Shown here: piece after piece, positions 16,301 to 59,053 of the stretch | Numbering within the stretch: the stretch's first letter is position 1 | How the letters are laid out: each line of letters starts with the position of its first letter | Source: Tetrahymena thermophila SB210 | Lineage: Eukaryota > Ciliophora > Oligohymenophorea > Hymenostomatida > Tetrahymenidae | DNA length: 64,000 nt | Direction: 5' to 3' | Assembly: GCF_000189635.1 (NCBI RefSeq) | Contig: NW_002476186.1 | Location: forward strand, 310,001-374,000 | Notes under the pieces: generated by a model | Told to the model about the DNA's origin: nothing | Seen by the model: the letters and a program-made list of their open reading frames with translations, nothing else | Databases searched by the model: none | Position numbers and translations under genes: made by a program

Positions 16301-19300
16301 AGGCTCTTAGTCGAGTATAAATTTAAAATTAAACATGCCTTGATAGTATCCTTCTTATTGCTTGCAGTGCCTCTTCTTGCTTTCTCATTTGATCCTTTGA
16401 TAAGAATTTAAATTAAAGAGAGCTTCATTTTATTGGGAAACGCTTAGTTCATATTGACCATCTTCTTTATACCTTTTTTCATTTATAGTTTTAATCTTCT
16501 TTTATAGAATTATGTTTCCATTAAATCTTTTCCTCTTATTAAATCCCTATAAAAACTTCGTTAAGTAATTCAAGATTCTATGAGAGAATCTTACTTCATT
16601 AAACCTAAATAATTTAACATTGCAAAGTTAATCAGAGAAATTTTCTAAGCCTTCGAGCCAGACATCATTTTAAGTTCATGTAAAAATAATAAAATAAAAT
16701 TTTAAAATATATTAATTTATTTATTTTTAAGATATGCTTTCCGAGTAAGTAAATTTAAGAGAAGCTAGCATGAATAAATACACACTGAAATTTAAAGATC
16801 AAAATATAGAAGCTAGATTCCTATCATAATATAAGAAAATAAGTTTAGCTTATTCGAGAACTATAACTACACTTTCATTCATTTTTATTGAAATATTCAT
16901 ACTTTATAGGAGTATCTTATATACAGGAGCATCTTTTAGTGAATTTAACCCAAGCTTTTATACTATTTACTTCTTAGGTGCTTTCTTTTTGTTCTTTATA
17001 CAGATTTTTGTATTTGTTTTTAGCGAGAAATATCAAAAGTATATAAGATAAGTAAACTATGGCATAATTTTAATCAGAATTATATATTTTATGATCTTGA
17101 TTAATATAGCAGATGTATATGATAGTGTTCCTGGAATTCTAATTTGCATCTTTCTATCTGTAATTATGCTTCCTCTGATCAGATTGGATTATCTGTTTTG
17201 TCTCGGAATTTTAATTTTATTAATTGTTATCTTAAGAGAATTTAATGTTATTAGCAACTAAGTATCATTATAAAACGACCCAGATATAAAGCAATTCTCT
17301 GTCATTCACATCCTTCTCAGTCATATTGAAATCTCTTTTTTGTTTTTCGTTTGCTTCTTAGTTTAAAAAAGAAACGTAATTAATTCTCTTAAAATTTTAA
17401 TATTTTTATTGACACTTAATCTGTTTAATTTAGTATGAAGAAATTGAGAGAAAAAACTTTTAGGTAAATCAAACACTAACACAAGCCACTTCTAAAATGA
17501 AAGATACCCTTTCTATCCTCCTTCCAAGATTTATAAGAGAGAAATTATATTCTGGATAAAACTATGATAAGATTAGCACTAATTAAGGAAATGTAGCTGT
17601 CCTATTTTGCGATATTACTAATTTTGATGAAATTATGATGCAAGAAGAAGAAAAAATTGTTAAAGTTTTAGATAATCTGTTTAGATAATTTGATAAATCT
17701 TGTCAGGCAAACTAAGTTTTAAAAATAGAAACTGTAGGTAAAACTTACATGGCAGCAGCAGGTTTAAGAGATGTGGATGAATATTATTAAGATGGATAAA
17801 ATTAAGTAAACACTTTTGTTGATCCTGTAAAAAGGTGCCTTTAAGTTGCTATGGAAATGTAAGAAATTGCCAAAAATATAACTTGGGGAAACACTAATAA
17901 TGGTGGAAAATCAGGAAAAGTTGAAATTAAAATTGGTAAAATATTTATTTCAGTTTGTTTTTTAATTAATAAATTATTATTAATTTAAAATTCTTTCAAA
18001 AAATTCATAATTTACTAATCATTTTTGTTAATCGTATTTTTGATAAAATAAATATAGGTATAAATTATGGCACAGTCATTTCAGGTGTTATAGGTTTCCA
18101 CAAACCTCAATTTTCTCTAATTGGTGACACTGTCAATACTGCTAGTCGTGTTTGCTCTACAGGACTTCCTAAAACAATAAATATATCTAATTCTTCCTAT
18201 CAAAAAGTTATTTAATTATCTTAATACAGATTTGAAAAAAGAGAAGTAGAAGCAAAGGGAAAAGGTATTATTACAACATATGTAGTCACACAAAAGAGTA
18301 ACACTTACAATAAGAAGAGTAGTTATTTTTTGATTTATTTATTTTGCTGATAATTAATTTTTAAAAGTGTAATAATTTTTTTTCATATTGAAAATTAGAA
18401 GGTTTATAGCAATCGTTATAGTTATAATAAGAAATAATTAATAAACTTCACCCAATAATTAAAAAGTAACAATAATAGTAAGTGAAAGAAAAAGCTTAAG
18501 AAAACTTAAATGGTTAATCTGTTATATAAGAAGCTTCTTCAAGTTAAAAAAGCAAAGAGAAGAGTGATGAATCACCTTCTTCAAACTCTAAGAATCGTAA
18601 TTCAGAAGAAATTAAGAGAAAATCTAGGAGAAGATCAGGGACTTATTACATAGATTCGGTTTCTAAATTTGCTGCGTTGAAAATCGCCCATTAGCAAGAC
18701 AATTAAGAAAATAAAGCAAAACCTTAAACTCATGCTAGTTAAAAGATAATAAAAATTCAAACTATGAGTAATATAAATGAAGATTCATAAAAGTTAATTA
18801 TGGGAAAAGATAACAACTAAGCTACTTCTAATAATCAAATTGCAAATAGATCATAGAATAATAGCTCCAGCAACTTAAATGTAAGAGGAAGGATTAACAG
18901 TATTTTCTTAGCAACTTCTAATTAAAATATAATTAATCTTTAAGAAGAGGTAATTGAGCCTATCCATTAAGCTGAATTATAACTTGGAATCGAAAATAAA
19001 ATAGATATGCAAAAGGTATCTAACCATGGTCTCAATTTATAATACTATGATTTAAAATAAATCAAAATGCAGTACCAAGAAGAAAAAGATGATATTTCAT
19101 AAGGTAAGTAGAATAACAATAAAATGAGGTTAAATATGAGTTATTGGACAGGAGCATAATCTTCGCATAATTTGCCAGAAAAAAATTTTGAGTTTGATGA
19201 AATGCTTAGCGAATTTTGGACTAATTAGATCGATGATTCTGTTCAGTAAATGAATGGAGCTTTTAAGCTAACTTTTCTCTAAATATTTTTGTACACAGTT

Positions 19301-20548
19301 AGTCTCTTTTTTGTTATAGGACCTTCTAAATTTAATTTGATAATAGCAATTAGATGTGGGCTTATCATATTCATAATAACTGCTTTTTTATTATTTAAGT
19401 ACATACTCAAACCTTAACAGTTATCTATGAATAAATTCAGAATGTACATAATAATTTTTTATTTTATTATTTTTGGAGCTCTTAATGTAGAAATATGGAT
19501 GGCTTCTGACTCTACTTCCAAGGCTGACTCTAATTATGTACTTTACAACGAAGCTGAAGGCAAACAGATTATAAATGTACTCATTTACGAAATATATTTG
19601 GTTTACTATTTGTTCTTCAGATTGAGAGTCTTTATTTTCATGCAACAATTGCCAGTTTTCTTAACTTCGTTCATCATATTTATAATTCACAATATTATGG
19701 ATGATTTAATATTTTAAAGCATAGTTATAAAAGTACTTTTCATGCAAATATGTTTTATACTTTTGCAATACTAACTGTTTAAAAAAGATTAAGAGAATTT
19801 TAACACACTTTAATCTTTAAATGAAAAGAATCAACAAACTGATAAACTTATTTAATATCTTCTTCCAAAGCACATACTTGAGCGCTTCTTAATGAATCCA
19901 ACTGCTTCGTATATAATCGCTGAAAAATTTGACAAGCAAACTATTTTATTTGCTGATATTGCAGGATTTACCCGTTATTCAGATTAAAATCAGCCAGAAA
20001 CTGTAGTCAAAATGCTGAGGACCATCTTTACAGAATTTGATCAAAAATGCTAGTATCACAAAGTATTTAAAGTCTACACAATTGGAGACTGCTATGTTAT
20101 CTTAGGTAACACAAACCACGAAAATAGAGATCCTCCAACTGAAGCCTATAATGTCATTATGATGGCTTTTCAAATGATAGAAATACTAAAGAGAACAACA
20201 GAATTAGTTGAAAATCAAATTGATATGCGTATTGGTGTGCATACTGTAAGATAAATTATTTTTTTTAATCTAAAGTATAAACAAATTTTTTTAAAAAAGG
20301 GTAAAATAGTAGGTGGTTTAGTAGGTACATAAATTGTAAGATATGATATATATGGAGTAGATGTTATGATTGCAAATAAAATGGAAAGTAATGGACAAAA
20401 AGGAAGCGTAGTAGTAAGTGAGACTACAAAAGATATACTCCAAGAAAGATACGGCAAAGAATTCATTTTCACTGAAAAGGGAGATGTGTATATAAAGGCA
20501 ACAGACACTAACATTAGAACATTCTTTTGTGATAAAAATCCTATCTGA
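10331..20548 (+). CDS. Guanylyl cyclase fused to a P4-ATPase-like domain
   Basis: Fifteen exons, 2,948 residues: 10331-10438, 10572-10661, 10917-11384, 11546-11696, 11870-13918, 13966-14063, 14125-14456, 14514-14773, 14836-15105, 15162-16679, 16732-17375, 17434-17935, 18058-18318, 18399-20245, 20300-20548. Phases agree throughout. The order matches known ciliate/apicomplexan cyclases: a flippase-like N-terminus (FSRLYFFAM, SLREYYFELRRA, GDIVLLKKDDICPADM, RGSQIQFTEWILG), more membrane helices, cyclase domain 1 (LFCDITNFDEI, LIGDTVNTASRV), a second set of helices, then cyclase domain 2 (LFADIAGFTRYS, YTIGDCYVILG). It makes cGMP at a membrane. The ATPase catalytic residues are degenerate: NTANTLT replaces DKTGTLT at 12664-12684, and GDTLAD replaces GDGxND at 15710-15727. 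Long Asn/Gln/Ser-rich inserts (about 12400-13900) sit in the nucleotide-binding region. Domain 1 keeps E and has S at the purine-selecting positions, which fits GTP better than ATP. Confidence 0.93.
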
Positions 20549-39565: not shown

Positions 39566-40717
39566 GAGAATCTATCTAAAAAAAGTGTTTTATTAATTAA
39601 TCGTGTCATATAATAAACATAATCTCATTAAAAAAATATTTAAAATTAACAATTAATTTAAAAATTTAAAAAACAACATGATACTTTTTAAATAATGTAA
39701 CTCACTAAAATACTTTAGATAAATAGAGATAAAATAAAATTATTATATAAATAAGTAAGTAGGATTATTAATTAGTTTGTAAAATTTTAATTAAATTTAT
39801 ATACATAATTGTAAATAGATCTTCTTCTATATTTTTATATTCTTAATCTTGTAAAGACAATTTCAATTTAATTTTATGTTAAATATTTAACTCAATATTA
39901 GTATGAGAATTAGCTTATCAATTTATTTATTTATCTATCTATATATCTAACTTTTATTATTTTTAAATTAAGATTAAATTATTTAAAGTATTCAGATTAT
40001 AAATTATATATTTTATTTTATAGAAAATTCAAAAATAATGATAATTGAAATATTTATGCAGATACTCTAAATAATTTTTGAAAATGGATTTCAAATATTT
40101 CTTTAAATATTTGCTTAAATTTTTTGTAAAAAAAATGAAAATAAAAATATTTTTTTAGAATTTAAAAAAATATTGAGTAAAAAATTGTTAAAAAATTCTA
40201 TTAATGTAAAATTCTATTAGAAAATATATTATTAAGTAGATTAATGATAATATAAATTATTACGTATCCATCTTTAAAAAATATTAATCAAATATTAATT
40301 AATTTGAATAGTAGATTCTATCAAGAAAATAAACTGAATAGTAATTTTTATTATATATATTATAGTTATAATGTAATTTTATTAAAATAATTATTAAAAA
40401 CAAATATGATTTCATATTAATAAAAAATGTGAGTTATTTTTATAGAATAATACTTATTAAATATGAATGAAAATTCTACTAAACGGAATTAATAGCAGCT
40501 ATTGATTTATTAATAATAACCAAAGGGAAGTATAAATTTATGAAGGATCTAACTATAAAGCTTAATAATTTAATTGATAAATATTAAAGTAAATCTACCA
40601 TCTATTAAGACACAAATTAATTAAAAGTAGCAAACAAATATCCAAAATTTTTACAAATATTAAATATATTAAGTAGAAAAAACTAATAGAATTTTGAATA
40701 GCAAACACAAATCTAAA
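39566..40717. other. Gene-free A/T-rich spacer
   Basis: About 1.15 kb between two plus-strand genes. It contains long A and T runs and AATAAA/TTTATT repeats; no coding-like frame on either strand. Confidence 0.7.
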
Positions 40718-42887
40718 ATGTCTAAAGTTACAAACAAGAGAAAGAACGATAAGTAGTTCAGTGAAATAGAAAAGCCTGCTGGCAAAAAGGTTTTCAATAA
40801 TGAAAAAAATGGTGCTAACAAAGGTGAAGGTTAGAAGAAGAATTTTAAGAACTTTAAGCAAAATGATAAATAAGAAAATGGATAAAAGACTGAGAAAAAG
40901 GCATCAAATTATAAATATAGTAAAGAAGGTAGACAATAAAACAAGGAAAAATAAGGTAAATAGGACAAGAAGGTTTTCAAAACAAAAGAGAAATTTGATA
41001 AAAAAACCAAAAAAATATATGCTGAAGGGGAAAATGAAGAAAACGATGGAAGTGGTATTCTTATCAGTGAAATAAATGTCAAAGTAAATAAAATACAAAG
41101 CAAAGATACTCCTTAAGAAGAAAAGGAAAAGTATATTGAGGAATATATTTCTAAATTATCTGGTGTCCTTAAGCAAATCGTTCATAAACGTGATGGTTCT
41201 AGATCAGTTTAAGCTTGTATCAAGAATGGAAGCGAAGAACAAAGAGAAAAAATATTTAATATTCTTTTAGATAGTAAAGAACTTGATGAAATCATTAAGA
41301 GTAAATATGGTCATTTTGTCGCTCTTCGTATGATCAAGTATTTGAAAAACAAAACTACCAAAGACAAATTGTTTGAAGTTATCAAAAAAAACGCTTTTTA
41401 CTTAGTTACTCACGTTGAAGGTGCTAAGGTCTTAGATAAATTTGTTATAAATAACGCCACTCCTGCCCAATTTAACACCCTTAAAAAATTATTCTCCAAC
41501 AAGCTTGAAACTGCTGCTAACCTTAAGCAAGAAGAAGCTATTGAAAATATTGCTGCTAAGATTATCGATAAGGGAAACCACGCCCCTCTTTTATCAAAAT
41601 ATATTCTCCACATTTCTCTTCCTATTTTAATTCCTGTTGAACGTGAAAAGGTAATTAATTAACTTATTTTAAAATAGCAGTATTTATTTTACCTAGTTAA
41701 AGCATTAGTTTTTAAGAAAATGGATAAACACGATATTTATTAATTATTCTTTATTAAATAGGTTATTGAATATCTCAGAGAAAAAATTTTAGATCTTGTT
41801 GATGATAAAGAAGGTATTAAGTTAGCTTTAGATGTCATAAATTATTCTACTCCTAAGGACAAAAAGCTTTTAGCTAAGAATTTAAAGGATCACATTTTTG
41901 AAATTATCAACAGTTAACACTCATAAGCATTCGTTATTATTATCAAGCTTCTTTTCTCATGGGATGATACAGTTTAAGCAAATAAAAGTATTTTGGCTGA
42001 ATTAAAGCCTAGATTAGATGAGCTTCTTCCTACTAAGAATGGTATTAGCTTTTTCTCAGCAATATTCTAGCCTAAGCACAATGCTTTGACATCTCTTGAG
42101 AAGGAAATTAAATTTACCACAAGGTATTTATTACTATTTTAAAATATATATTTTTATTCTAAGTTAAATTGGATAAAATAAATTAACAGCAAGAAGCCTC
42201 TCGAACAAAAGTTAAGTGAAGTCATTGAAAGTGTATTCGACGATTTAGTTAACTGTATACCAAAAATCCCTGAAGAATAATTATTTAAAGACTTTAATAC
42301 TTCCAGATTCTTATCAAGCATCATCAGACATATTTTCATTTGTAAATAATTTCATAAATTTAAATATAGTAGTTATAAAATTGTATCAATAAAATATTAG
42401 CCAAATAAGAAAAACATTATTAGTTTGCTTTTAACTTTGTAGACAAAATTTTAAAGGATGGCGAATAATTCTTGAGTTCTAACGATAAAAAGAAAAACTT
42501 CAATGATGAATGTCTTTTAAGTCACCACGATGCCCATAGAATTATGAAAAATATTATTTTAATTGTAAAAGAAGTAAAAGATGAATCCACAAAGGAAGCT
42601 ATTGTTAAAAAAATAAGCAATTTAACTAATTTGTTACTTAAGCATTTATCTACTGTCTTGTCTTCAAGAGCTACCTATCTCCTTGTTGCTTTAATAGAAA
42701 ATGATATTAATAAAAAGATGGTAAAGATATTATTTATTACTATTAAATTAACAAAAAAATATTTACAAACTAATTAATTTTAAATTAGGTTATAGATGCA
42801 GTTAAAAAGGACAAGACCCTCTTATAAAAATAAGGAGAAGATAATAAAGGTGCTACTTTGTTAAAAAGCCTTATTGCAGGATAATGA
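40718..42887 (+). CDS. PUM3: Puf6/PUM3-like Pumilio protein (ribosome biogenesis)
   Basis: Five exons, 607 residues: 40718-41650, 41762-42123, 42190-42341, 42443-42720, 42789-42887 (stop TGA 42885-42887). The first ~130 residues are very Lys/Asn/Gln-rich and basic, a typical nucleolar targeting region. Pumilio-type repeats follow (VHKRDGSRSVQACIKNGSEE, KYGHFVALRMIKYL, THVEGAKVLDKFV), then the C-terminal CPL helical region ending near IDAVKKDKTLLQKQGEDNKG. This pattern is that of Puf6/PUM3 (Penguin), a nucleolar protein binding pre-rRNA and helping 60S subunit assembly, not the sequence-specific PUF1-5 type. Codon use is richer in C/G-ending codons (GTC, ACC, CTC, AAG) than in the neighbours, which fits high expression. 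The length is close to the family's usual 600-650. Confidence 0.88.
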
Positions 42888-44057: not shown

Positions 44058-46565
44058 ATGAGTATTGAAATTATAGATGCTAAGAGAGCTGCCCAAAGAA
44101 AAAGATAAATTGGATAACTTTTGAAGCAAATTCATAAGAGTTATACAGAAAATAGGAGTTTAAAAGAGGAATTCAACGTCATGTAAGCAGCAAAAAAAAT
44201 CATAATATCATTATGAAAATAGTGATTAAATATTAAAAGAAAAAATTTCTAAAGACGATAAATTGAATTTGAATTTGTTTCAAAGCAAAAGATATAAAAA
44301 TTTTCACCAAAATAAAATGAATTTAGCTTTTATTTCTATATTTTAATATAAAGATTAGAACCATATATAAGATAAAATGATGAAGCTTCATGTGCAGTTG
44401 TTGAAAGAAGAGAGCTAAGAGAAGATGAAGATGAGTGTATAGCCAAATTAAAAAAAGATGATGTAGCTGCAATTTTAGATATTATAAAAAAATTAAATCC
44501 TTAACTTGAAGAATAAAATTTGCCATTAAAGAAATTAAGTCTAAAATCTTGCACGTATATTTCATTTTTATCTAATTAATATTATAATAATTATATGTCT
44601 TTTTTCTTTTATTAATATATATTGATATAGCTAATATTTTCTAAAAAATAAATAGACTTCCACTTTCTGGTGAATCTATAGAATAGCTTGCTTAGTTTAT
44701 ATCTTCAATTCCATCTCTTGATTCCTTTACTTTAAGATTTATATGGTACGCGTTTTTGTATATTTATATATATTAGCTGTAAGCATTAATGCTAAATACA
44801 TAGATTAAATAATTTGATGTCTTTGTAGGATTTACTAATAAACTAAATATATTCACTTTACATAAATTTTAGTTCATTCTCTTTTATTCTAATAATAGGT
44901 GTGGTGTGAAAATGCCACCTAGATTTATTTTCTGCATAACCAAAATGGCACCCCAACTTAGAGAACTTTACTTGCACTTTGCGTTGTAATTAAAAAATTT
45001 ACAAACTTTTACTTTTCAATTAACAAAATGAACAAAAACTCTGGACTATTTATTTTACAAAATTTTAATTTTTTATAAATTATTGTTAAATATATGAAAA
45101 AAAGCAAACTATTTATTACAAATTTCAAATATTAATATTAGAAAACCAGATCTAGCAGAATAATGCATCAGTAATCTTGCTAAGGCTATAGATTCTTGTA
45201 GATTTTTAGAATCTTTAAATATTGATGGTATGGAGTGCGAAGGGATAACAAATAATTGCCTCTCTAAATTAGGAAAAATGACAAATAAATTAGAAAGTTT
45301 AAGAACATTTGTATTTAAATTAAGATCGTAAGAACTAATTCTATTTTGTATTTTTAATTTTAAATTAATTTTTCAAAATAGCTCATAATATATTGATGAA
45401 AAAGGAATTCAAGATTTTGGTACAGAATTTACTAAAACTAAATAGCTTACTCATTTAGAGCTTTCATTTTATTAGTAATTTTATTTTTTACTATTATTGT
45501 TTTTATTAAATAAGTTGTGTTACTCTTTCTGTTAACACTTCTAAAAGCTTATTTTATAAAATTCATTACTTAAAAATAAGAAAAAATAGTATTTATTAAA
45601 CAATAAATTAAAGTTTTTTGCTAAGCGCTATATTTTTTTTATAAACTAATTTCTTTCATTGAAATATAATATCTATTATAATTTATTTATTAATATATCT
45701 TACAGTTTCATTAATACATTCTCAAAGTAGAGCATGATTTCTTTAGGTAAAGCAATCTGTTAACAAACTGAGTTGCAAAGTCTAGTTCTAGATTTTTCAT
45801 GGTGTTCTGATATTGTTGATGAAGCAGCCTAAATTATAATTAGTTAAATTATGGATATAAATGATCTTAGAAGCTTGAATATAAATTTTTCAGGGTAAAT
45901 TAATTAAAATTATAATGTTATTAAATCAAAACTTTACATTTTTAAAACTAAGATCTACACGAATTACAGATTTAACTTTGTAATATATTGGATAGGCACT
46001 AAAATCAAATGATTAAATATCAAAATTGTTTTTATATTTTGGAAAGTAAATAACATTTGAAGAGAGAGAAAAATAAAATTTTTAAAATAAATTTTCAATA
46101 AAATAAATAGCTGTGAATCTTTTACCGATTAAGGTTTGTTTACTTTGAGTAAATATCTTGCAAAATGCACCAATCTATAAGAACTTACATTAGATTTTTC
46201 ATCGTAACATTTTATAAAATCCTTTGATATATATTAAATAAAATAAATTTATAAATTAGATGCTTTAGTATAACTGAGAGTGGGTTGGAATCTATTTGCT
46301 CAGTAATTCATAGTTTATATTTACTAGAAGATCTTTTTATATCTACTCACGAGTAAAGCTTGCTTTTTCATTATTTTTTCACTTAAATTATTCATATTTA
46401 TATAGTTTCTTATCGAACGAAATTTAAGATCTCATAAATTAAATGTAAGAAAAACTAAGAGAATCTGCACTTAGAAGAAAAAGCATAAATTTATCTCTCT
46501 TTGTTACTAATTAATACTCAACTTTACTTAAAAGAAAAGATGTTTTAAATGATTTAGCTTATTGA
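44058..46565 (+). CDS. LRR protein with phase-2 repeat exons (first copy)
   Basis: Ten exons, 438 residues: 44058-44182, 44354-44554, 44656-44745, 44899-44985, 45142-45327, 45382-45474, 45706-45894, 46111-46203, 46260-46352, 46406-46565; stop TGA 46563-46565. All nine introns are phase 2. Most internal exons are 87-93 nt, one repeat each; two are 186 and 189 nt and hold two repeats, as if an intron was lost. Repeats resemble the ribonuclease-inhibitor type, each ending LxxLxLxF before the splice, for example ELQSLVLDFSWCSDIVDEAA and NLQELTLDFS. The first ~100 residues are a charged helical leader (MSIEIIDAKRAAQRKRQ) and the last ~50 are basic. No signal peptide, membrane segment or catalytic domain. 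LRRs of this sort bind proteins; partner unknown. Confidence 0.85.
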
Positions 46566-46929
46566 TTTCAAGTAGAATTCATAAGTATTTTATGTTTTTG
46601 TATTATTTGAAAAATAAAATTAATTTAAACATTCTGAAAAGATATTCAAAAACTAATGGAATTAAATTAAAAGTAAAGCAAGTTAAATGAAAAAATTTAG
46701 TCAGTATATAAACAAAAATATAATAAAAATTTAGTTAACATAACACAGCAAAATAGTAAAATTTAAAGTATCTTTTTATATTTATTATTATAGTAATTCA
46801 AGTAAGCTACATGTTTTATTTTTTATTCAAGTTCATTTGAATACTTAAAATAAACTCAGAATTTATAAACAATAAAAATTTTAAGTGATAAATGCTCCTT
46901 ACTAAGATTGTTTTTTATATAGATCTCCC
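46566..46929. other. Convergent 3' intergenic region
   Basis: About 360 bp between the ends of two genes facing each other. A/T-rich, nothing recognisable beyond likely 3' untranslated sequence. Confidence 0.65.
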
Positions 46930-48204
46930 TCAGCTTTGGATATTTTCACAACAGAAAGTGATATCTTAGGATTTTAAAGTGCTCATGGCATCTGATTTCT
47001 GCATTTTGTTCCCTATCTTAGGTGTTATTTAATCTTTTGATTCCTAGCATTTGGACTCTACAGTTCTTGATCTCTCCGAATGCATGTCATAATTGTACTA
47101 GCTACGTTTAGGAGTACGGGCACGTTGTCTATCCTGGTTTTTCTTTTCTAAAATTTCTTAATGAATTTCAGGATATATTTCAGATTAAATGACTTATTTT
47201 TCAAATTTAGCAGTCGAAACAGTGTTCTAAGTATTGTCTTCTGTTCTTATTTTAAGTTTTTCTAGTAAATCAGTAATAATGTCATCCTTTTCTTAGAGCT
47301 TTTCCCTGAAAATATCCTCCTTTTCCTAAAATTTTTGTTCAATAACTTACTCAACCACTTGTTCTACAATTTACTTGATCTTTCTATCTTAATCGAAGTA
47401 TCTTTCTTTATCAGTATTAGATCTATTAGGGTTGTCTTAGTTTTTGCTTTAAGCTTGATTTTCGTAATTTTGATTTTAGTAGAACTTATTCTGCATATAC
47501 TGATTATCGTAATAATGTTAACCCTAATATTAAGGTTAAAACTTTTACTAATTGAAATGGTTTTGCTAAGGAGGATTTGAATAGCCCTAGAAAAATTCTC
47601 CTCTAGTAGGATTCATATTATTTTCGTAATTTCTGTTATTGGGATAGCTTTAAAAGTTGTTTTGCATATTCATTTAAGGTCTACAATAGTCCTTTTAGAA
47701 TTTATAAGAGTAGTTTCTTCTTTGAGGATTCTAGCCATGAGGAGCATTTATATTAAAATTTGGATTCTAGCCAGGAATTTAGTTCATCTAATTAGGATTC
47801 TAATTCATTTAATTTTAATTCTAGTTCATCGGATTTTGATTCTAGTTCATCTGATTTTGGTTTTAGTTCATTTAATTAGGATTTTGATTGATCTAGTTTG
47901 GATTTTGGTTCATCTAATTCTAATTTATCTAGTTATAATTTGTATTAATCTAATTAGAATTTTAATAACCAGACTCAGGCATCATGTTGACTTCCTTATC
48001 TATTTATGACTAGCCTGCTGGATTGTTCTCGCCTCTATAGTAAGGATTCTAGCTGTTATTGTTTTTAAGATTCTTATTGTTGTTTTACCTGTTCTTGTTG
48101 AAAAACTAAGAGGTGCTCTAGATTTACTGTTAAGACTGAGGATTATTAGGCTTTTTGGTGTTATTTGAACTCAAGATCTACTACAAATTATTTGTTTCTT
48201 GCAT
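46930..48204 (-). CDS. Asn/Gln/Met heptad-repeat protein with coiled-coil tail
   Basis: Single-exon minus-strand gene of 424 residues, ATG 48204-48202 to TGA 46932-46930. Under the ciliate code it starts MQETNNLQQILSSNNTKKP. Residues about 90-140 form a tandem seven-residue repeat, NQMNQNP/NQMNQNQ, about seven copies, followed by a Tyr/Asn/Gln/Arg-rich section (RNYENNMNPTRG, FYQNQNYENQ). Residues about 255-310 form a charged coiled coil (QIVEQVVEQVIEQKFQEKED). The end is basic and Ser/Arg-rich (RARTPKRSQYNYD). The composition is prion-like and suggests a condensate or granule scaffold; this is inference. No known domain. It is divergent from the taxilin-like gene, 553 bp away. Confidence 0.82.
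47782..47928 (-). repeat. 21-nt minisatellite encoding NQMNQNx heptads
   Basis: Seven tandem copies of a 21-nt unit, seen on the plus strand as variants of TTCATCTAATTCTAATTTAT-like units (CATCTGATTTTG, CATTTAATTTTAA). Differences between copies are mostly at glutamine codon positions (CAA, TAA, TAG swapping), so the protein repeat is better conserved than the DNA. Lies inside the Asn/Gln/Met-rich gene. Confidence 0.8.
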
Positions 48205-48757
48205 TTAAAAAAAATCTTTTTAAAGTCACTCTATATTAAATTTATTTATTTTTAATAAATAATATCAACAGAAAAAGATTTGTTTGTTTTTTGAGATCAA
48301 TATGCTACAATCAATTTAGCTAAAATGTAATTAATAGATTAAATAATTCTAATAACTAATTTTTGCTACACCTATAAATAAATAAATTAATTAATTAGCT
48401 TGGATATAGAAAATTCAAATATTAAATAGATAAATAAAAAAATTAATTAATTAATAAATAACACCTAAAAAAAAGAATTTCTTGATTTTTCTTTAACATA
48501 TTCTAATATTTTAAAGATATTTTAAATATCTAATTTTTTATATGTTATTTATATTGAAATAATGATATTTATTAACTTTGATTTCTTTAATTTAATTTAA
48601 TTATTTTAACACTTATTATTAATATTAACTTTTATAAATTAGTGTCAATTAATTTTTTGAATTTTTAAAGATAAAGTATTTAAAAAAAGGAGAAACAAAT
48701 ATCTTATTAAAAAAGAGTTAATTTCTAACTAAAAAAACTTCGCAATTTCTTAGATAA
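48205..48757. other. Divergent intergenic region
   Basis: About 550 bp separating two genes read in opposite directions, so both promoters must fit here. A/T-rich with TTAATTAATTAA-type tracts; no motif can be named. Confidence 0.65.
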
Positions 48758-50258
48758 ATGTCAAAACAAATTAATTAAGACCACCTTTAACAAATATAGG
48801 CTTTCATTAATAAGCAAGTAACTGGTTCATCAGTACCTATCGAAACAGAAGCAGAGATGAAAGAAGTTAGTATTGAATTGTTTTATTTTTGATTTATGAA
48901 AAAGATAAACTAAGAAAATATTTATTTCAAAAAATAGGAAAGCTATTTTAGAATGCCCAAAATTTATTAGCATTATTCATAAAAGAAGCCAACACAGCAG
49001 AAAAAAGAACCTAATTATTTTAGGCTTTTGAGAATTTAGTAAAAAATTAAGTTTTATTCTTTAGTATTTATTGTATTTTAAATATAATTATAGACAGAAA
49101 TAGCTATTAAATATGAAGAATAAATTAATTAATTGAAATTCAATAACAGCATCTTAAAAGATGATACAGAGAGAAGTAAAATAAAATATTTAAAATAATT
49201 TGGCATTTTTTAATTGAATTTTTTATATAGCCTCTTAGGAAAATATGAGATTAAGTGAATTGAAAGAGAAATACAATCATGTTTGCAAAGAAATTGGTGA
49301 TGCAGTTAACTAAATTAAAAAAACAAACAAATTAATGGTTGAATAGGAAGAAACACAAAGATTGCAACTTGTTGAAAATTTTGAAAACTCTTTAAAAGGT
49401 AAAATTTTTACATAATTTCAATATTGCATCTTTAAATCATTAAATTAAAACAAAATAGATATCACTTCAAAGATAGATGAATAAGATAAGGAAAGGGAGG
49501 AAAAAGAAAAGGAAAACAATTAGTAAAAAATAAAAAATACAGTTAAAATTTTGATTTCATATCTTATTAAAATTTAGGCTCAAGGAGTAATTAAAATAAC
49601 TCATTTCAGAGTATGAAGAAAAGGAAAAAACTTATCTCTCAGGACTTGAAGAAAAAGGTTTATTAAATATTCATTTTTAGCTAATTTTAAAATTTTAAAA
49701 TAAACTTCAAAAGATGGTTAATTTAAGGGCAAAGTAGAGGAATTTATGAATCAAATAAAATCTGTTGAAACTGAAGCACATCAAGCTCTCTAACTTAGAT
49801 CTGAATTAAACTAGCTAGCCCAAAGTGAAACTGAAAAGAAACTTAAAATCGCTATCTATCAAAAGAGAACAGGAGATCTTGTAGATAGTATTAAAAAAAC
49901 TAACTCCACAGTTACTTAATTAAAAGAAACTTTATTAAAGGTATTTAAAAATATGAAGATTCAATAAATTAAAACAAATATTTTAAACAATAATTTAGAT
50001 GTACTGGAAATAGTAAAAGCTTTAAAAGCAACAAGAATAGCTTGTATCTCATTCATAAAAAGGAGAAGCTCTATTATTGACTTTCATTAAAAAAGTAATT
50101 GCATAAAATCACTAAATTAATTTTCAATTGTAAAAATTTAATTTTTATTAAAATAGAATTAAGATGTTGAAGATTAAATAAACGAAGTAAAATCAAAGAA
50201 AGAAGTTATGAAATAAAAAATTCAAGAAATACAATCTAAAATAAAAGCTCTTGCATGA
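48758..50258 (+). CDS. Taxilin-like coiled-coil protein
   Basis: Nine exons, 344 residues: 48758-48865, 48943-49050, 49094-49175, 49231-49398, 49459-49522, 49578-49657, 49714-49940, 49999-50094, 50157-50258 (stop TGA 50256-50258). After about 70 residues the protein is one long coiled coil with the taxilin layout: LSELKEKYNHVCKEIGDA, a KTNKLMVEQEETQRLQL stretch, a central EYEEKEKTYLSGLEEKD block, then IAIYQKRTGDLVDSIKKTNS, equivalent to the conserved YxxKxxEFQxTLxKSNE core. Taxilins bind syntaxins and act in vesicle traffic or at centrosomal/ciliary structures. Intron phases are mixed, unlike the LRR genes on either side. Other long coiled-coil families could look similar, so the family call is moderate; the gene model itself is firm. 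Confidence 0.75.
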
Positions 50259-51062
50259 AATATTTGCAGATATCTAAACTGTCAAATTGATATTATTTAA
50301 ATTTATAAATTAATTAATGTATTTATTTTATAGACAAGTATGATTTAACCAGTTAAATTATTAACAGCAGCTTATTTCAATTTTAACATTCATTAAAATA
50401 AATTATTTTACCAGTTTATGATTAAAGCTAAATTATTTTACTATTTTATTATTAAAGCTAAATAATTCAAATAAAAATAATAACTAACAATAAACAAAAA
50501 ACTAAAATTTATATTATCATCTTTGAACCCTAACATGTAACCCATAATTTAGAATATTGAAATTTTTCGAAATTTGTATCTAAATAAATGATGATAATAA
50601 TATAATTTTTAAATAATTAGTAAATCATATCAATAAAAATATTTTATTAGTTAATTAATTTAAATTGTAAAGAATTAAAAAATGAAAAAAAAAAGAAAAT
50701 ATTTAAAATTTAATCACAAATAAAAAAATTAAATTTAATAGAAGTAGTAATATATAAAAAGAATAGAAGGAAAAATTCATAAGTTTAATGTTATTTATCA
50801 AAAAAGTTAAATCAAAAAAGTGAAATTATAACTATAAGTTTATATATTTTAATATAGCAGTTATTTTTGTATGTAATATAGTAGTTTTAACTATTATCAA
50901 GTATTTTCATCATTATTTTCTATTTATAAAGTAATTTGCTTACTGGCTTACCAATAGTATAGAATATTTGTTTGCATTTTTGTTCTTTTTTTTTCAAATT
51001 TAAACAACAATTTTTTGGATATATTTTTTCATAAGTAATGTATTTTGCTTGTTATGTTTGTG
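50259..51062. other. Convergent 3' intergenic region
   Basis: About 800 bp between the ends of two genes facing each other; A/T-rich with a T-rich stretch near 50960-51060 close to the minus-strand gene's end. No coding-like frame. Confidence 0.65.
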
Positions 51063-52420
51063 TCATAAGTATAGATCACAAAAGATAAAGTTGGGGTGGT
51101 AGTGCATTTCAGGGGAACAAAGAAAAGAGAAAAAAAGACCTACATTTGCAAGGTCATTAATCTAGTGTAAGCACTATTCAATACATGGACGCAAATATTG
51201 GTACCAAAACTGAAGTTGGATTCCTGATAAAATAAATTTTCTAATTTAAAATGAATTTTCTATCACAATCTTAGCTAAGAATAATTAAGATTGATTGTCC
51301 ATAGTACAATTAGAAAGTTAAATATCTAAAATACTGAGACTACGATTGTTTGAAATTAGATTTCTTACCTGTTAAACGACATCTAAGTTGAATTTTACTC
51401 TCGATATGCTAACTTTGAGACGTTCTAATGAGTTTATTGTTAAAGCGCCAAAGAATTATGATAAACCTTGCTCATCAAAATCGTTTCTCATTAGATCAAG
51501 CTCTAAGAATTTTAGTTTCTAATAAACAGTGAAAATCTTACCCATCTAAAAAAGACCCTAATTGGTCAAATTATTTATTGAAAAATTTAAATAAAGTTAG
51601 GTTAGACGTCTTGCATTTTCCGCTATTGATTTCGTTATTTTAGCTATTGGAATATCACCTAATTAATTAGAGTGAACATTAATCTTAAGTTTCTTTAGAT
51701 TCTAGTTCTGTAGCAGGATTTTGACTAAATTCTATTCTAAAAGTTCTCCACCTTTCGAACCGATGTTAGTCCCCGCTATAGACAGCTCTAAAGATTCTAG
51801 ACTATTTAATGTGCTCAGTCCTTCACCTATGCTTTTTGCCCTAATTATTCCTAAATTCTAATCATACTCTTTTGAAATTTATAAAATAATTTAGGTAAAT
51901 AGGTTGTCTTTAGTTATCAAAAAAAAAGAAAAAAAATACATTCTTTGAGAGTGCTAACATCAATACAAAGTTTGCTAACATTTTGCAATTAAGATAAAGC
52001 TATTTTTAGATCTTCACAACCCTGCTAATTGATTTCAATATGATAAAAAAGAAAGCGAAGTTTTTTTAATGTAAGTGAAAGTGATTAACATATTTATAAA
52101 ATTTCTGTCATTTCAGAATCTTCTCGGACATTTAGTAGCTGTAAATCAAGCTCTGACAACCTGGAAAGGCAAGATATTGCCTTTAGAATAGCCTTTGTGT
52201 CAGCGCAGCCCAAGGAATGAGCATCGATTAAAAGGCCATACTGCTCCATTTGGGTTTATTCTTACAAAACAGAAGCAATAAACTGGGCCTTATATTGAGA
52301 GTAATCATCAATGTGCATTCTTACATTCCTTTAGTCCTTTATTAACTCACGAAAGGAGTTTACATTACTGTGGTCAAGAAATATGATTGCCTAGTCTGTT
52401 TGATTCTCAATCTCCATCAT
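51063..52420 (-). CDS. LRR protein with a single intron
   Basis: Two exons on the minus strand, 428 residues: 52420-51940 and 51868-51063; stop TGA 51065-51063. The start has two adjacent ATGs; the first is used here. Repeats have the ribonuclease-inhibitor-like LRR pattern, such as RLTQLYLNFSINNLTNQGLF, KLKFLELDLMRNDFDEQGLS and LERLKVSISRV, spaced by about 28-31 residues. The N-terminal ~60 residues are not LRR. The protein has no signal peptide, membrane helix or catalytic domain. Its coding DNA is less A/T-biased than the flanking LRR genes and it lacks their one-repeat-per-exon structure, so it is either an intron-poor relative (for example through an mRNA-derived copy) or a separate older LRR gene. 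Function unknown. Confidence 0.85.
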
Positions 52421-53342
52421 TATATTAAATTTTATATTTTTACTGCAAATCAGTTTAATTAATTATAACAGAATATTTTAAAAATTCAAATATATGCAAT
52501 TATATGAATTAATAATGTTAATAGCTTAGCTAGATAGCTTTGTTGGCCAATAATTATTAAATTAATCTTTGAATTTTTAATTAATTTAAAATAAATTTTA
52601 CTGAACTTCTTTTTCCTCTACCTTCCAGTCAGTATTATATTTAAAAATAAATTAATTGATGAAATTAATATTTAATATTCAATAACATATTTTAAAGTTT
52701 AATTAGAAATGTTTTTTTAAAAAATAAATATAAAATAATTTAATTGAGATTCTTCCAATTTCAATCAAATAAAATAACAATAATAAATAATAAAGATTTT
52801 ATAGTAACTTCTGAAATTAATAATTTTTTAATTCTGATAATAATCATTAAATTAAACTAATAATAATATCTCTACCTTATCACAAAAAAAATTTCACAAA
52901 ATCTTGAGTTAAAAAATTTATTCCAAAAATTATTAGTTTATTATGAATTATTATTTTAAAAAATTTTTTACATATTTGAACTTATTTCGTTTTACAATTA
53001 TTATTATATTTAATAAAATTATTCTATTTATAATAGTTTTTCTTTATTAAAAAATTAATCTCTTTTTGATTTTTTGATGAGAATTTTAATAAAAGTAATG
53101 AAAAAATTTAAATTTTTCTAAAATATTTAAAGGATTAAAATTATTTAAAATATTTGTTTTTTATTGATTAGTAATTGGTAAGTAAAATATAAATTAATAA
53201 ATAGAATAAATTAAAGCTTTTTAAAATCATTAAAAAAACGGATACCGTTGAACAAACACCTTTACTCTCTTTTTATTTATTAAACAAAATAGTTATTTGT
53301 TAAAATTTATTTAATTAAAAAATTAACTAAAAATTAATACAA
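52421..53342. other. Divergent intergenic region between two LRR genes
   Basis: About 920 bp between LRR genes read in opposite directions. A/T-only sequence with many A and T runs; both promoters must lie here. No named motif is visible. Confidence 0.65.
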
Positions 53343-56300
53343 ATGGGATCGCTATTCAGTAAAAAAAAGAAACCTGTATAAAATTAAGAAAAATACATTG
53401 ATGAGATTGTATAGGAAGCCGATGAAAATTATAATCTATTAGATTTACTTAATTTATTAAAAAAATTTGAATAACAATATTATCAATATAACTTTTATAA
53501 GAAGGATTTTCCATTTTTACTCATTCAAGTATAGAACAAAAATACAAACTCTAATTCTCTCTTGAAAGTTATTGAATGGAAAAATGCTAATATTTCTGAT
53601 ATTAATTTTTTGAGAAATTAAGATTTATATTAAGGAAAACAAGTAATTGATCACATTATTTTACCTTTAGATTAATTCTTTTTGATTGAAAGTGGTTCTA
53701 TAAGAAATGAGAGCGAGAATTATCAAATATTTTCTGATATTAATAAACTTAAAGAGCTTAAAGGATTTATTGTTTTGGAATATGATTTTGATGAATGTAA
53801 TTTTTTTCAAACAAAATGTAAAATTAAATTAATTTATTTTTTTAGATACTACTAGATTTTAATTGGAACAAACAATATCTGAAGAACAGGTGACCAATTA
53901 TGAAATATTTTAAATTAAATAATAATTTCTATAAATTAAAAGTTGAAGGGAATGTACTCTATTGCAATTTAAATCAACCATAAATAGTAATTAAAATTTA
54001 AATTATAATAAAATTTACAAAAATATTTTTACTAGATATGGATCATATTAAGGGTAAACTCCTTCATTGTGTGAACAACTTGGATTGTGCAAGAATTTAG
54101 AATAACTTTCCTTAGATTTGAGGTTAAAAATATCTTATATTATTTATTTATTTAATATAAAAAATTAAAAAAAAGAACTATTGGTTTGTAGAAAGAAGGA
54201 ATTCTAGAATTAGGAAATTCTATTTGTGAATGTTAAAAGATAAAAAACTTAAAAATTCTTCTCTAGTAATTTAGCTAAATAAAATATTTTATTTAAATGC
54301 AATAAATAAATAAATTTAGGTCTAACAAATTAGAGATAGCATGTTTGTCAGGACTACTATCAAAAATAGAATAGCTAAATTTTCTGGAAGAATTAATCTT
54401 ATTTTTAGGGTAATAATATTTTAAAGCTACTTATTTATTTTAATTAATATGTTTTTCATAGATGCACTCGTCTAAATTATACAGCTGGATCACAGTTAGG
54501 ATAAGCAATAACAAAATGCCCTAATTTAAAGAAATTAGAATTGGATTTAATGTTAGAATTTAATTTACTTGTTCGAAAAATGAAATTACTCTAATAAATA
54601 TTTATAAAGTCTTAATTAATTAGATACTTAGGGTTGTTAAGATTTAGCAAATGGACTATCAAAATGTAGCATGCTATAGAATTTGATATTAGAATTAAGG
54701 TAATAAATTATTATTATGTTTAAAAACATTTAAATGTGTTGATAAATTAATTTAAAAATATATTTATTTGAAATAAAAATATTATATCAATTTAAATAAG
54801 TTTTTTTTTAATTGGATAAGCAATCTGAAAAGTGAATGATAAAATAAGTAAGTGAATAGTTACAAAGATTAAAACTTTTACCCAAATATTCAAATTTATT
54901 TAAAAATTTTTTTTAAAGTTTATTTAATTAATTATAAAATTATTAATATTTAAAAAGGGCAAACTCAATAAAAATAGAAGGTTTAAACTATTTAGCTGAT
55001 GGCATCTCTAAATGCAAAAATCTAGAACACCTGAATTTAAAATTAGAGTAAGGTTTTTATTAAAAAGTTTTAACTATTTAATATTAATTAAAGTAAGAAT
55101 GGTATTTCAGGATCTCTAAACTAATTAGGAGAAAGGATATTTATGTTAAAAAATTTGATAACATTTAACTTATCTCTAGAGTAAAATATTTTTTCCAACA
55201 ATAAAAAGACCTTTTCAATAAATTTAAATTTATAAGGACAAATAATATAAAAAGTGGTATTTTCCATGTTTTGTAAGGATTAGCATAATCTAACAAAATT
55301 ACAGACATAGCTATAAGACTAAAGTAACTAATCACTTTTTTCTTTAACTCTCCTAATTATTTTTTAAAGTGAAAATTAAATTAGTGATGATGAAGTAAAA
55401 GATCTAGGATTTGTTAATTGTTAGAATTTAAATCGTTTTATACTGCTTATGTCGTAAGTTTTAATTTTGCTTCTTATAAATCTATAAATATTTAAGAAAA
55501 AATTAGATAACATCTAAGTTTTTCAAAGTTTTTGGTAAAGAAATTGGTTATTGCAAAAATATCTAATACCTGTAATTAGAATTCAAGTAATTAATTACTT
55601 ATAAAAATAACGAGTATTTAAAAAATATTAAATATTAAAATAAAGTTAAATTAATTTGAAATATGATGCCATTGAATTTTTAAGCTAAGGAGTGTCTTAA
55701 CTTAAATCTCTGAATATCTTAAAATTATCATTAGAGTAATAATATATAAAATTCAAATTTAGAATATATCATAAATAAACATTTTAAAAATAAAAAGTTA
55801 TAACTATATTAACGATACAAGTGATTCAAATTCACAAAGTAATGTTTTAATTAAATATAAATTTAAATTACAGTTTTATAATTATCTAAAATAGCTTAGT
55901 CAAGATTTTTAGGAATATCTGATCTATAAAAACTTTAAGAATTAAAAGTAGAGATTAGGTATTTTTTTAACTTTTATTGTTAAATATATTTAACTTAATT
56001 TCGCATAGTCAAAATAACTTAAGCTAAAAAGCTATCATTCAAATAAGCGAAGAAATATCAAGCTGCTAATAGCTTTAGGAATTATACTTAAAAATGAAGT
56101 AATTATAAAAATATAAATATGGATTTTAAAAAATCTTTAAAATTAAATAAGCTAAATAAAAAACTTTAATGATGTTGCTAATGTATTTATTGCCAATATT
56201 ACAAAGTGCTGTCAATTGAAAAAACTCAGCTTTCTTAGTGTGTAATAATATTTTATTTATCTATAAAATGATATTTATTAGTCTTCAAATAATTTAGAGA

Positions 56301-56997
56301 TAATAAGATAACTACTGATTAAGCAGAGGAGATAGGATAAAGTCTATCAAAGTTTTAAAAATTAGAAAATTTAACTTTGATTTTAAGGTAAATAAATTTA
56401 TTTATTTCTTATTTATAAATATTGAGTTGAACTTTACTTTAAAAATTTAAGTATTTGTTAAAAACAAAAAGTTAAAATTAAATTTTAATATTTAAAATAA
56501 AATATAATGACATTAAATTAGCTAAAACAATATACTTGGAAAGGGATCAGCCCTACTAACAGAAGGAATATCTAAATCTCTAACTATCAAAAAATTGGTC
56601 TTGCACTTAGAGTATTTCTTTATTTCTTTTATTCATACCTAAATAAAATATTTCTATTCATTAAAAAGTAATAATTAGTTGAATGGAGAACTTATAGACA
56701 CTTTTTCTGAAAATATTTCAAATTTAAAGAATCTAAAAATTTTAGTATTGAATATTGGGTAAAAAAATTACATTTTTTATTTAAAAAAATAAAATAAAAA
56801 TATCATTTTAATAAATTATAAGTGGTAACTCAATTGATCACAACAGTCTCTTGTTATTAGCTAAACATTTATCATAGACCCAATATCTATTTTATTTAGA
56901 AATAGTTGTATCTCAGGGTAGAGCAAATAGAAAGAATTTAAGGTCTCTTTTTAAGGCTAAAAGATTATTAAGTATAAATGGTACTTTTAAAATTTGA
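53343..56997 (+). CDS. LRR protein, MG start, 22 exons of mostly 90 nt
   Basis: Twenty-two exons, 749 residues: 53343-53796, 53846-53889, 53943-53986, 54036-54122, 54176-54265, 54320-54409, 54462-54551, 54610-54699, 54958-55047, 55094-55180, 55255-55323, 55370-55453, 55497-55586, 55646-55735, 55798-55838, 55874-55958, 56009-56098, 56152-56241, 56298-56387, 56522-56611, 56669-56758, 56823-56997. Twelve exons are exactly 90 nt. From the third intron on, all introns are phase 2 except the one splitting the module at 55838/55874. Each repeat reads like QLGLCKNLEQLSLDLR and ends just before the splice. The start MGSLFSKKKK has Gly2, Ser6 and a Lys run, the form of an N-myristoylated, polybasic membrane anchor (prediction). 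The first ~150 residues precede the LRRs and match nothing I know. The end is a short basic tail. Ligand or partner unknown. Confidence 0.88.
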
Positions 56998-57347
56998 TCA
57001 ATTAATTTATTTTGTGTTTTTGTAGATTTAAAAAATATTTTTTTTAATTGTATTTAATTATTGAATGTTTAACAAATGTTAAAATTATAATAATAAAAAA
57101 ATTAAAAATTAAAAAAATGTATTAACAATTTTTTTTGATTAACAAATAAATATATTATTCAATTTCTTTTTTTGTTGTCCTGATCAAAGTCGAATTATTA
57201 TTAATAAGATTTAAACAGATTTATAAAATTTTTTACTTTTTAATCAATTATTAAAATCCAACATTTTGTATTTTCATATTAATTTATGTTTAAAAAAATT
57301 GAATATATCTTAAATCAAATACAAATATTGACAGATTGTAAATAAAA
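56998..57347. other. Short spacer between tandem LRR genes
   Basis: About 350 bp separating the two LRR genes with MG starts. A/T-rich with poly-T and poly-A runs. The short distance and same orientation fit tandem duplication. Confidence 0.65.
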
Positions 57348-59053
57348 ATGGGAAATAAAAATTAAAAGTAATAAACAGAAAATGTAGTTACATCTACATA
57401 ATAAGTGTAAACAAAGCATTTTGTAGACAAGCAATATAAAAAAGGATACTAACAAATTCAAGAAGTATTAAATATATATATGTCTCAAAATGTTATTTAA
57501 ATGTTTTGTAGTTAAAAAAAGGAGATCCTAAAAAGCATTTAGAACTTCATTATCAGCAGTAAAAAGCTTAAAGATTATATTTTTTTCTATAATTAATAAA
57601 ATATTTAAAATATCTAATATATATTATGCCTTTTATTTAAAATCTAGTAATAATTAAATATAATTTAAATATAAATTAGCTATGAATAGAGTTTAGAATC
57701 TGTCTAATATTTCTGCGATACGATTATTTAGCTCTCTTGTTTGTAAAAACTAACACTAGATTTCAGGTAAACTAATTTATGATTATTTATTTATTTGCTT
57801 GAGATAATAATTTACATTAGATATTTTTAGATTGAAGGTTAAGCTGCCAGTACCATTTCTTCTGCATTAGCAAAATGCAAGAATCTTACTTATCTAGACC
57901 TACAGTTTTAGTAAATTAAAAATATAAATATAAATGCATATCAAACTTAATTTTTAGATAAAATTTGATAGATAAGTAATAATTTGATCAAATAATAGAA
58001 TAAATATCAAACTGTAATAAGTTAGAAACATTAAAACTATTCTTCGGGTATATAATTGATAAAAAAACAAAACTCTTTTTTATAATTGATATTTATTTTG
58101 ATAATATAGATAAAATTTAATTGAAGATTTTTAGGCTTAAAGTTTAGAATAAACTCTTAAATCTCTACCCAATCTTTAAGTTTTTGCTATTGATATAATG
58201 TAAATATTATAACATTATTATTTTAAAGCTTAATTTACTAATAGAAATAACAAGCTGAGTGAATAAGGAGCAGTTAATGTTAGCAATGCAATAGCATAAT
58301 GCCCTAAAATTAAAAATGTATATTTAGGATTTAGGTATCAATTATATTTATTTATAATTTAATACTAAAAATCTTGAATTTATCAATAAATAGGAAAACA
58401 TTTAAATTTTCAGAAGACTTTTTTGGCTTTAACTTTAAAGGCTTCAGTAAAATTTAGGAGCTTACCATCTTTTTGGAGTAAAACAAAAAAATTAGAATTT
58501 CAAAAACTTGATTTAAATTTTAAAAAAAGCGAAAACTCAATTGATTAATAAAAAGCTAAAATGCTTGGTGATAACATTTCTTGTTGCTCTAGTTTAAATA
58601 ATCTAACTTTATCATTAACGTAAACTATTTTTTAATTTTAAAATTAAATTTTAACTAATCTTTAAAATTAATTAGGCAAAATTAAATTAATTTAGTTGGT
58701 TCAATTTATTTACTAGAAGGTTTGATAAAATGTAAATAGCTTGTAAATTTAACATTAAGAATAAGGTATTTTATTATAAAAAAATAAATAAAATAATAAC
58801 ATTATTTATTTTAAATTTAATTCATTATAAGCTCAAATGGAATCCCAGACGAATAATTATACAAAATATCTAAAACATTAAAAGGTTTGCAGTCAACTAC
58901 AATACTGGAAATAACTTTAGGGTAAATTTTTTATTTAAAAAATAATTTTAATATTTTTTTTCAAAAAGGGTTTAAAAAAATACTTTAAGCTATAAAAAAA
59001 TAAAATTAGAGTTATTTAAATTAAAAAGATTAGCTTAATTTTATCTTTACTGA
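57348..59053 (+). CDS. LRR protein, MG start, 11 exons, tandem paralogue
   Basis: Eleven exons, 394 residues: 57348-57646, 57680-57766, 57821-57910, 57958-58047, 58110-58199, 58245-58334, 58394-58477, 58530-58619, 58676-58765, 58832-58921, 58969-59053 (stop TGA 59051-59053). All ten introns are phase 2; seven exons are exactly 90 nt, two others 84 and 87. Repeats look like SALAKCKNLTYLDLQF and ISNCNKLETLKLFF. The protein begins MGNKNQKQQ, again a possible N-myristoylation start, though without the Lys run of its upstream neighbour. The final exon encodes a basic tail (KIKLELFKLKRLAQFYLY) resembling the ends of the other modular LRR genes here. Probably a tandem paralogue of the 53343 gene with about half the repeats. 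Confidence 0.87.

Follow-up and report, generated by a model that had tools for sequence, protein, structure and literature searches.

In the ciliate genus Tetrahymena, a family of leucine-rich repeat (LRR) genes built from one 90-base-pair (bp) exon per repeat has been described that comprises thousands of genes in ten species (Xiong et al. 2019, PLoS Biol, PMC6564038). According to the main text of that paper, the 90-bp exons occur in runs of three or more, encode six leucine positions and are preceded by phase-2 introns in >98% of cases; in LRR genes without 90-bp exons, 34% of introns are phase 2. Older members (group II) have introns of ~56 bp, lack nucleotide-level repeat units and are left unmasked by RepeatModeler consensus repeats, and young members (group III) have repeat units that are alike at the DNA level and introns near 257 nucleotides (nt) in T. 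thermophila. The proposed role of the family is sensing bacteria or bacterial products. Here we analyzed three LRR genes, termed genes 1, 2 and 3, within a 64,000-nt stretch of Tetrahymena thermophila SB210 (contig NW_002476186.1, positions 310,001 to 374,000; hereafter the window, in whose numbering all positions are given). The modular-exon pattern of one repeat per exon separated by phase-2 introns was confirmed in the window, with corrections to the sequence-only reading that had proposed it. We are highly confident that genes 2 and 3 belong to the 90-bp-exon family as typical representatives of its older group II, and that gene 1, most of whose modules are 93 nt, is a relative that has diverged further. 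The one-repeat-per-exon LRR design is thus already published for Tetrahymena, and the earlier attribution of the genes to a Tetrahymena family of this kind was right.

Similar designs have been reported outside ciliates. Most human NOD and NLRC genes encode one LRR per exon (PMC6642158), although their repeats are 28 residues long and alternative splicing has been shown for them, whereas the window genes have 30-residue repeats. The ROCO genes of brown algae share one LRR per exon, phase 2 and exon shuffling (PMC11378527), but their exons are 72 bp and encode 23-residue LRRs, and no ROC-COR was found in the window genes by Pfam.

Gene models were rebuilt from predicted GT-AG sites, reading frame and module pattern using ciliate code 6 (Table 1); this code and the gene family both point to Tetrahymena. 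Exactly 90 nt was the length of 12 exons in gene 2 and seven in gene 3, which reproduces the 19 such exons counted earlier, and of one exon in gene 1; the remaining single-module exons were 84-93 nt, as had also been described. The 90-nt exons were arranged in consecutive runs of 5, 2 and 5 in gene 2 and of 4 and 3 in gene 3. Phase-2 introns accounted for 38/42 introns overall (10/10 in gene 1, 18/21 in gene 2 and 10/11 in gene 3) and for 38/39 within the repeat region, in line with the earlier statement that nearly all repeat-region introns are phase 2. All 19 of the 90-nt exons in genes 2 and 3 were preceded by a phase-2 intron, and all 19 were also followed by one; that such exons could be skipped, duplicated or reshuffled in frame, as the sequence-only reading had put it, follows from this structure. 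Median intron length was 54 nt in both gene 2 and gene 3 (where single introns of 258, 134 and 121 nt stood out) and 83 nt in gene 1.

The modules encoded by the 90-nt exons shared a common pattern. When the weakest of them (exon 56152-56241, leave-one-out score 1.2, compared to 7.1-37.0 for the other 18) was omitted, the consensus had leucine or isoleucine at positions 12, 16, 22, 25, 27 and 29. This 29-residue consensus, xNxIxxxxxxxLxxxISxCxxLxxLxLxL, together with the junction residue makes up a 30-residue LRR turn, with the phase-2 intron positioned directly after the last strand leucine. Each exon contributes one such turn to the predicted protein.

Some exons differed from their earlier description. 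The exon at 55255, reported as a 69-nt shortened repeat, was probably produced by a misread downstream AG, and an 87-nt exon beginning at 55237 replaces it. The module at 55798-55958 does contain an extra phase-1 intron, as claimed, yet its boundaries had to be corrected: the best call is a 74-nt intron at 55839-55912 that leaves a module of 41 + 46 = 87 nt, superseding the 35-nt intron of an earlier model. Both this split module and the module in the last exon are included in the 18 modules of gene 2. A leader intron of 47 nt in phase 0 gives gene 3 its present start and replaces an earlier model in which the start was misplaced and stops interrupted the frame.

Since AT-rich DNA contains many GT and AG dinucleotides, 90-nt spacings could in principle arise by chance, and open AG-to-GT segments were indeed found at lengths other than 90 nt (2-9 per length class), compared to 25 at length 90. 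We scored the open, phase-2 AG-90-GT segments for the leucine pattern and compared their number with that in 200 Markov-1 resamples. Sixteen segments between 53343 and 59053 passed the score threshold, whereas the resamples had a mean of 0.02 and a maximum of 1, and all 16 fell among the 19 modelled 90-nt exons of genes 2 and 3, 16/19 of which therefore carry the pattern at this threshold. Elsewhere, no such segment was detected in bases 1-43000 of the plus strand and a single one on the entire minus strand. Within 53343-59053, the remaining lengths divisible by 3 in the range 60-120 nt yielded 0-4 leucine-pattern segments each. Chance can be dismissed for practical purposes as the source of these exons.

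Because the hand-made models had relied on phase consistency, we applied an independent, phase-free spliced aligner that uses a circular 30-position module profile and allows introns at any module position and in any phase. When the aligner was trained on genes 2 and 3, 16/17 introns in gene 2 and 8/8 in gene 3 were phase 2 and located at a module boundary. With a profile derived from the other gene only, the proportions were 15/15 and 6/6, respectively, and the ends of 12/15 introns in gene 2 and 5/6 in gene 3 were identical to those of the hand-made models. The cross-trained aligner departed from these models in merging over the split module and the exons at 56152 and 58110, in placing the last gene 2 intron differently and in stopping before 58832. 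A single path across genes 2 and 3 (53343-59053) scored 692 on the real sequence, compared to ≤20 in 25 resamples.

The rebuilt model of gene 1 has an additional phase-2 exon of 93 nt at 45953-46045. This exon was the best match among nine long introns scanned for modules, and its score was reached in 0/100 resamples; the scan gave a clear match in gene 1 only, and none of five flanks scored above the resamples. A faint, stop-containing candidate for a dead module in the 258-nt intron of gene 2 (54700-54957) had a score reached in 5/100 resamples, and we make no claim for it; this intron is not itself an evident repeat, having four weak genome matches besides itself. As the sequence-only reading had stated, two modules are present in each of the long exons of gene 1 (186 and 189 nt); intron loss, to which it attributed them, is one possible origin. 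A fourth LRR gene lies between genes 1 and 2, with modules of the same type as in genes 1-3 fused into at least two long exons and an uncertain splice site near 51869-51966. The best aligner score in the window outside the four LRR genes was 26.

The runs of 90-nt exons, the phase-2 introns and the six leucine positions of genes 2 and 3 are those of the published 90-bp-exon family, and their introns near 54 nt and absence of DNA-level repeat units resemble group II (PMC6564038). The group III features were not found in genes 2 and 3, whose consecutive 90-nt exons are 37-58% identical and whose median intron is 54 nt. Since all 10 introns of gene 1 are phase 2, compared to the 34% published for LRR genes without 90-bp exons, gene 1 also points to the 90-bp-exon family. 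Relative to the published description (PMC6564038), most modules of gene 1 are 93 nt long and two of its exons hold a pair of modules, one module of gene 2 is interrupted by an extra phase-1 intron, and several module exons of genes 2 and 3 measure 84 or 87 nt.

Several observations weigh against this assignment or against the uniformity of the pattern. Every splice site in the three genes is a prediction. Four introns are not phase 2, namely introns 1 and 2 of gene 2 and intron 1 of gene 3, which are leaders, and the intron of the split module. In its rebuilt model, gene 1 lacks any run of three 90-nt exons, and under the aligner it scored 69 with 4 introns, one of them a phase-1 intron of 617 nt; because the aligner performed poorly there, the hand-made model was retained for this gene. 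A Pfam search, in which genes 1 and 2 were represented by earlier models, gave no LRR family above cut-off (LRR_4 had an expectation value (E) of 0.022 for gene 3), and equally weak matches to unrelated families were obtained for genes 1 and 3. Gene 2 matched only 5irm/5irn (E 7e-4) and 5irl (E 1e-3) in the PDB, entries labelled "Uncharacterized protein", with no individual stretch significant alone. We take these entries to be rabbit NOD2.

We also considered the age of the arrays. Their tandem arrangement and equal exon lengths would fit recent local exon duplication, and recent array expansion is visible at other loci of the same genome. Within the window, however, consecutive 90-nt exons were only 37-58% identical in DNA (18 pairs, one of which spans genes 2 and 3), and the mean identity over all pairs of 90-nt exons was 0.44, with a maximum of 0.59. 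In a comparison of 158 modules drawn from 17 genes or loci, module identity was 0.25 within gene 2 and 0.22 within gene 3, and 0.25 and 0.26, respectively, to the other genes compared. The nearest neighbour of a module belonged to its own gene in 1/12 cases for gene 2 and 0/7 for gene 3, so the modules do not cluster as duplicated exons, an outcome that the sequence-only reading had named as speaking against it. Direct repeats in 53343-59053 were limited to nine families of two copies each that were 71-86% identical over 28-60 nt. Since modules of one gene resemble each other no more than they resemble those of other genes, recent local exon duplication is unsupported, and we consider it very unlikely to have built these arrays. 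The copies in the window look old: they are well diverged, not newly duplicated. The arrays probably originated long ago by duplication of a single exon-plus-intron unit and would then have diverged through point mutations and minor changes in length that kept the frame. With the pattern upheld and its proposed clustering absent, the overall interpretation given by the sequence-only reading is partly supported.

To place the window genes in the genome, we searched 101.0 megabases (Mb) in 445 contigs. Besides itself, gene 2 had 11 matches, which were short and had E 8e-9 or weaker, and residues 1-151 of gene 2 matched only themselves at E 0.001. A search with the consensus module yielded 3,491 candidates at first look; 150 of these were scored, and 30 overlapping loci were taken. 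These 30 loci lean towards young arrays because they were chosen as the best consensus matches. They contained 138 distinct 90-nt phase-2 exons, with adjacent-exon identity averaging 0.85 and a median intron of 275 nt (overlapping loci being counted more than once), and 218/235 segments called in them were 90 nt long and ended in phase 2, with 90 nt preferred if several lengths fitted. One of the 30 loci, L038, had diverged about as much as the window genes.

The aligner was also run on 24 loci (8 + 16) picked by protein matches, which biases the set towards long open frames; the search query for the first 8 was the earlier gene 2 model. In 15 of the 24, the sole array found was located within one exon of 492-1200 nt. 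The other nine comprised L068, with one single-exon array on its minus strand and 90-nt-exon arrays on its plus strand; L066, which contains 90-nt-exon arrays; L064 (G000:C138:46001-53500, minus strand), a mosaic LRR gene whose exon pieces measure 122, 87, 180 and 328 nt, with 3/3 introns at a module boundary in phase 2; and six others. L011, L013 and L017 had one or two introns away from a module boundary, and the multi-intron paths of L054, L061 and L062 were doubtful. Boundary phase-2 introns amounted to 19/50 in this run and were confined to L064, L066 and L068. The remaining 31/50 came from L011, L013 and L017 and from paths of L054, L061, L062 and L066 in which introns were doubtful or exons tiny; such paths were not used as evidence. 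The motif LxxLxLxL recurred at exact 30-residue spacing in L008, L009, L011, L012 and L017, and the 12 modules of L008 had a mean residue identity of 50%, with every nearest neighbour in the same gene. An [LF]FKxKRL-like C-terminal end was present in genes 2 and 3, L008, L010, L015, L027 and L063 and, in a looser form, in L068, as counted without a chance control and with L010 and L015 overlapping. Since the same 30-residue module occurs in uninterrupted exons, the period belongs to the LRR turn, independent of introns.

These genes raise the question of whether loss of boundary introns, e.g. via reverse transcripts, turned one-module-per-exon genes into the uninterrupted arrays found at other loci and also produced the two long exons (186 and 189 nt) of gene 1. 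The exclusively phase-2 introns of gene 1, the boundary introns of the mosaic L064 and the 30-residue period of the uninterrupted genes, some of which also have the C-terminal end described above, are consistent with such losses. However, the uninterrupted arrays could instead be ancestral, and a single clear mosaic was found in 24 loci selected in favour of long open frames. We therefore regard intron loss as possible but tentative. Uninterrupted arrays of the module were not encountered in the parts of PMC6564038 considered, and the terms "intronless", "single exon" and "retrogene" are absent from its main text.

The module consensus resembles what we take to be the ribonuclease-inhibitor/NLR class of LRRs. 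The products of the window genes would be curved LRR solenoids of this type, either cytosolic or attached to a membrane, whose most likely role is to bind other proteins. Gene 2 begins with MGSLFSKKKKP (53343-53375), presumably an N-myristoylation and basic membrane-attachment start, and judging from this motif its product may be membrane-attached through N-myristoylation. The N-terminus of gene 3, MGNKNQ, is a weaker case of the myristoylation type than that of gene 2.

Two other features of the window were observed on its plus strand. An adenylate/guanylate cyclase catalytic domain (PF00211) was matched in two stretches at 18392-20545 (E 2.5e-41), and a weak Pumilio repeat match (PF00806) at 40544-42472 scored 23.6 bits and so fell short of the cut-off (26.3).

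Table 1. LRR genes of the window and the exons of their repeat regions.
Feature	Position	Strand	Remark
Gene 1, LRR gene	44058-46565	+	11 exons, 469 amino acids, ~10 modules
Gene 1 module exon, 90 nt	44656-44745	+	rebuilt model
Gene 1 module exon, 87 nt	44899-44985	+	rebuilt model
Gene 1 exon, 186 nt, two fused modules	45142-45327	+	rebuilt model
Gene 1 module exon, 93 nt	45382-45474	+	rebuilt model
Gene 1 exon, 189 nt, two fused modules	45706-45894	+	rebuilt model
Gene 1 module exon, 93 nt	45953-46045	+	phase 2; inside apparent 216-nt intron
Gene 1 module exon, 93 nt	46111-46203	+	rebuilt model
Gene 1 module exon, 93 nt	46260-46352	+	rebuilt model
Fourth LRR gene	51066-52420 (ends approximate)	-	aligner scores 67 and 70
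Gene 2, LRR gene	53343-56997	+	22 exons, 742 amino acids, 18 modules
Gene 2 module exon, 87 nt	54036-54122	+	rebuilt model
Gene 2 module exon, 90 nt	54176-54265	+	rebuilt model
Gene 2 module exon, 90 nt	54320-54409	+	rebuilt model
Gene 2 module exon, 90 nt	54462-54551	+	rebuilt model
Gene 2 module exon, 90 nt	54610-54699	+	rebuilt model
Gene 2 module exon, 90 nt	54958-55047	+	preceded by 258-nt intron
Gene 2 module exon, 87 nt	55094-55180	+	rebuilt model
Gene 2 module exon, 87 nt	55237-55323	+	upstream AG acceptor; aligner agrees
Gene 2 module exon, 84 nt	55370-55453	+	rebuilt model
Gene 2 module exon, 90 nt	55497-55586	+	rebuilt model
Gene 2 module exon, 90 nt	55646-55735	+	rebuilt model
Gene 2 split module, first half, 41 nt	55798-55838	+	aligner
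Gene 2 split module, second half, 46 nt	55913-55958	+	aligner
Gene 2 module exon, 90 nt	56009-56098	+	rebuilt model
Gene 2 module exon, 90 nt, weakest module	56152-56241	+	rebuilt model
Gene 2 module exon, 90 nt	56298-56387	+	rebuilt model
Gene 2 module exon, 90 nt	56522-56611	+	rebuilt model
Gene 2 module exon, 90 nt	56669-56758	+	rebuilt model
Gene 2 last exon, final module and C-terminal stretch with LFKAKRL	56823-56997	+	rebuilt model
Gene 3, LRR gene	57348-59053	+	12 exons, 349 amino acids, 9 modules
Gene 3 module exon, 87 nt	57680-57766	+	rebuilt model
Gene 3 module exon, 90 nt	57821-57910	+	rebuilt model
Gene 3 module exon, 90 nt	57958-58047	+	rebuilt model
Gene 3 module exon, 90 nt	58110-58199	+	rebuilt model
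Gene 3 module exon, 90 nt	58245-58334	+	rebuilt model
Gene 3 module exon, 84 nt	58394-58477	+	rebuilt model
Gene 3 module exon, 90 nt	58530-58619	+	rebuilt model
Gene 3 module exon, 90 nt	58676-58765	+	rebuilt model
Gene 3 module exon, 90 nt	58832-58921	+	rebuilt model
Gene 3 last exon, C-terminal stretch with LFKLKRL	58969-59053	+	rebuilt model

Finally, we considered whether the arrays act as an alternative-splicing cassette in which symmetric 90-nt exons are skipped in combinations, such that one gene gives rise to solenoids of variable length. All 19 of the 90-nt exons in genes 2 and 3 are removable in frame, and LRR exon skipping has precedents in human NLRP3 (PMC6642158) and in brown-algal ROCO genes (PMC11378527). 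Moreover, T. thermophila was the only non-animal whose skipped exons were reported to show a frame-preserving bias like that of animals (p=2.18e-5, PMC6142364). On the other hand, neither "alternative splicing" nor "isoform" appears in the main text of PMC6564038, and donors in the window are mostly GTA- (18/21 in gene 2 and 11/11 in gene 3), though two gene 2 module exons end at GTTA. Reads mis-mapped among near-identical young exons could also mimic exon skipping. Combinatorial skipping in these arrays thus appears unlikely to us. That 90-nt LRR exons are skipped in vivo and are the cause of the frame-preserving bias in T. thermophila is a proposal we would rate slightly higher, but still as doubtful; the words "leucine" and "LRR" are absent from the main text of PMC6142364. 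Genes 2 and 3 would allow skipping to be assessed cleanly, since their old and diverged exons should map uniquely.

If such skipping does occur, T. thermophila would be a single-celled organism with thousands of genes of this type, each locus giving solenoids of variable length. Exact 90-nt periodicity and array growth, for their part, need no intron per module, which bears on the origin of one-exon-one-repeat arrays.

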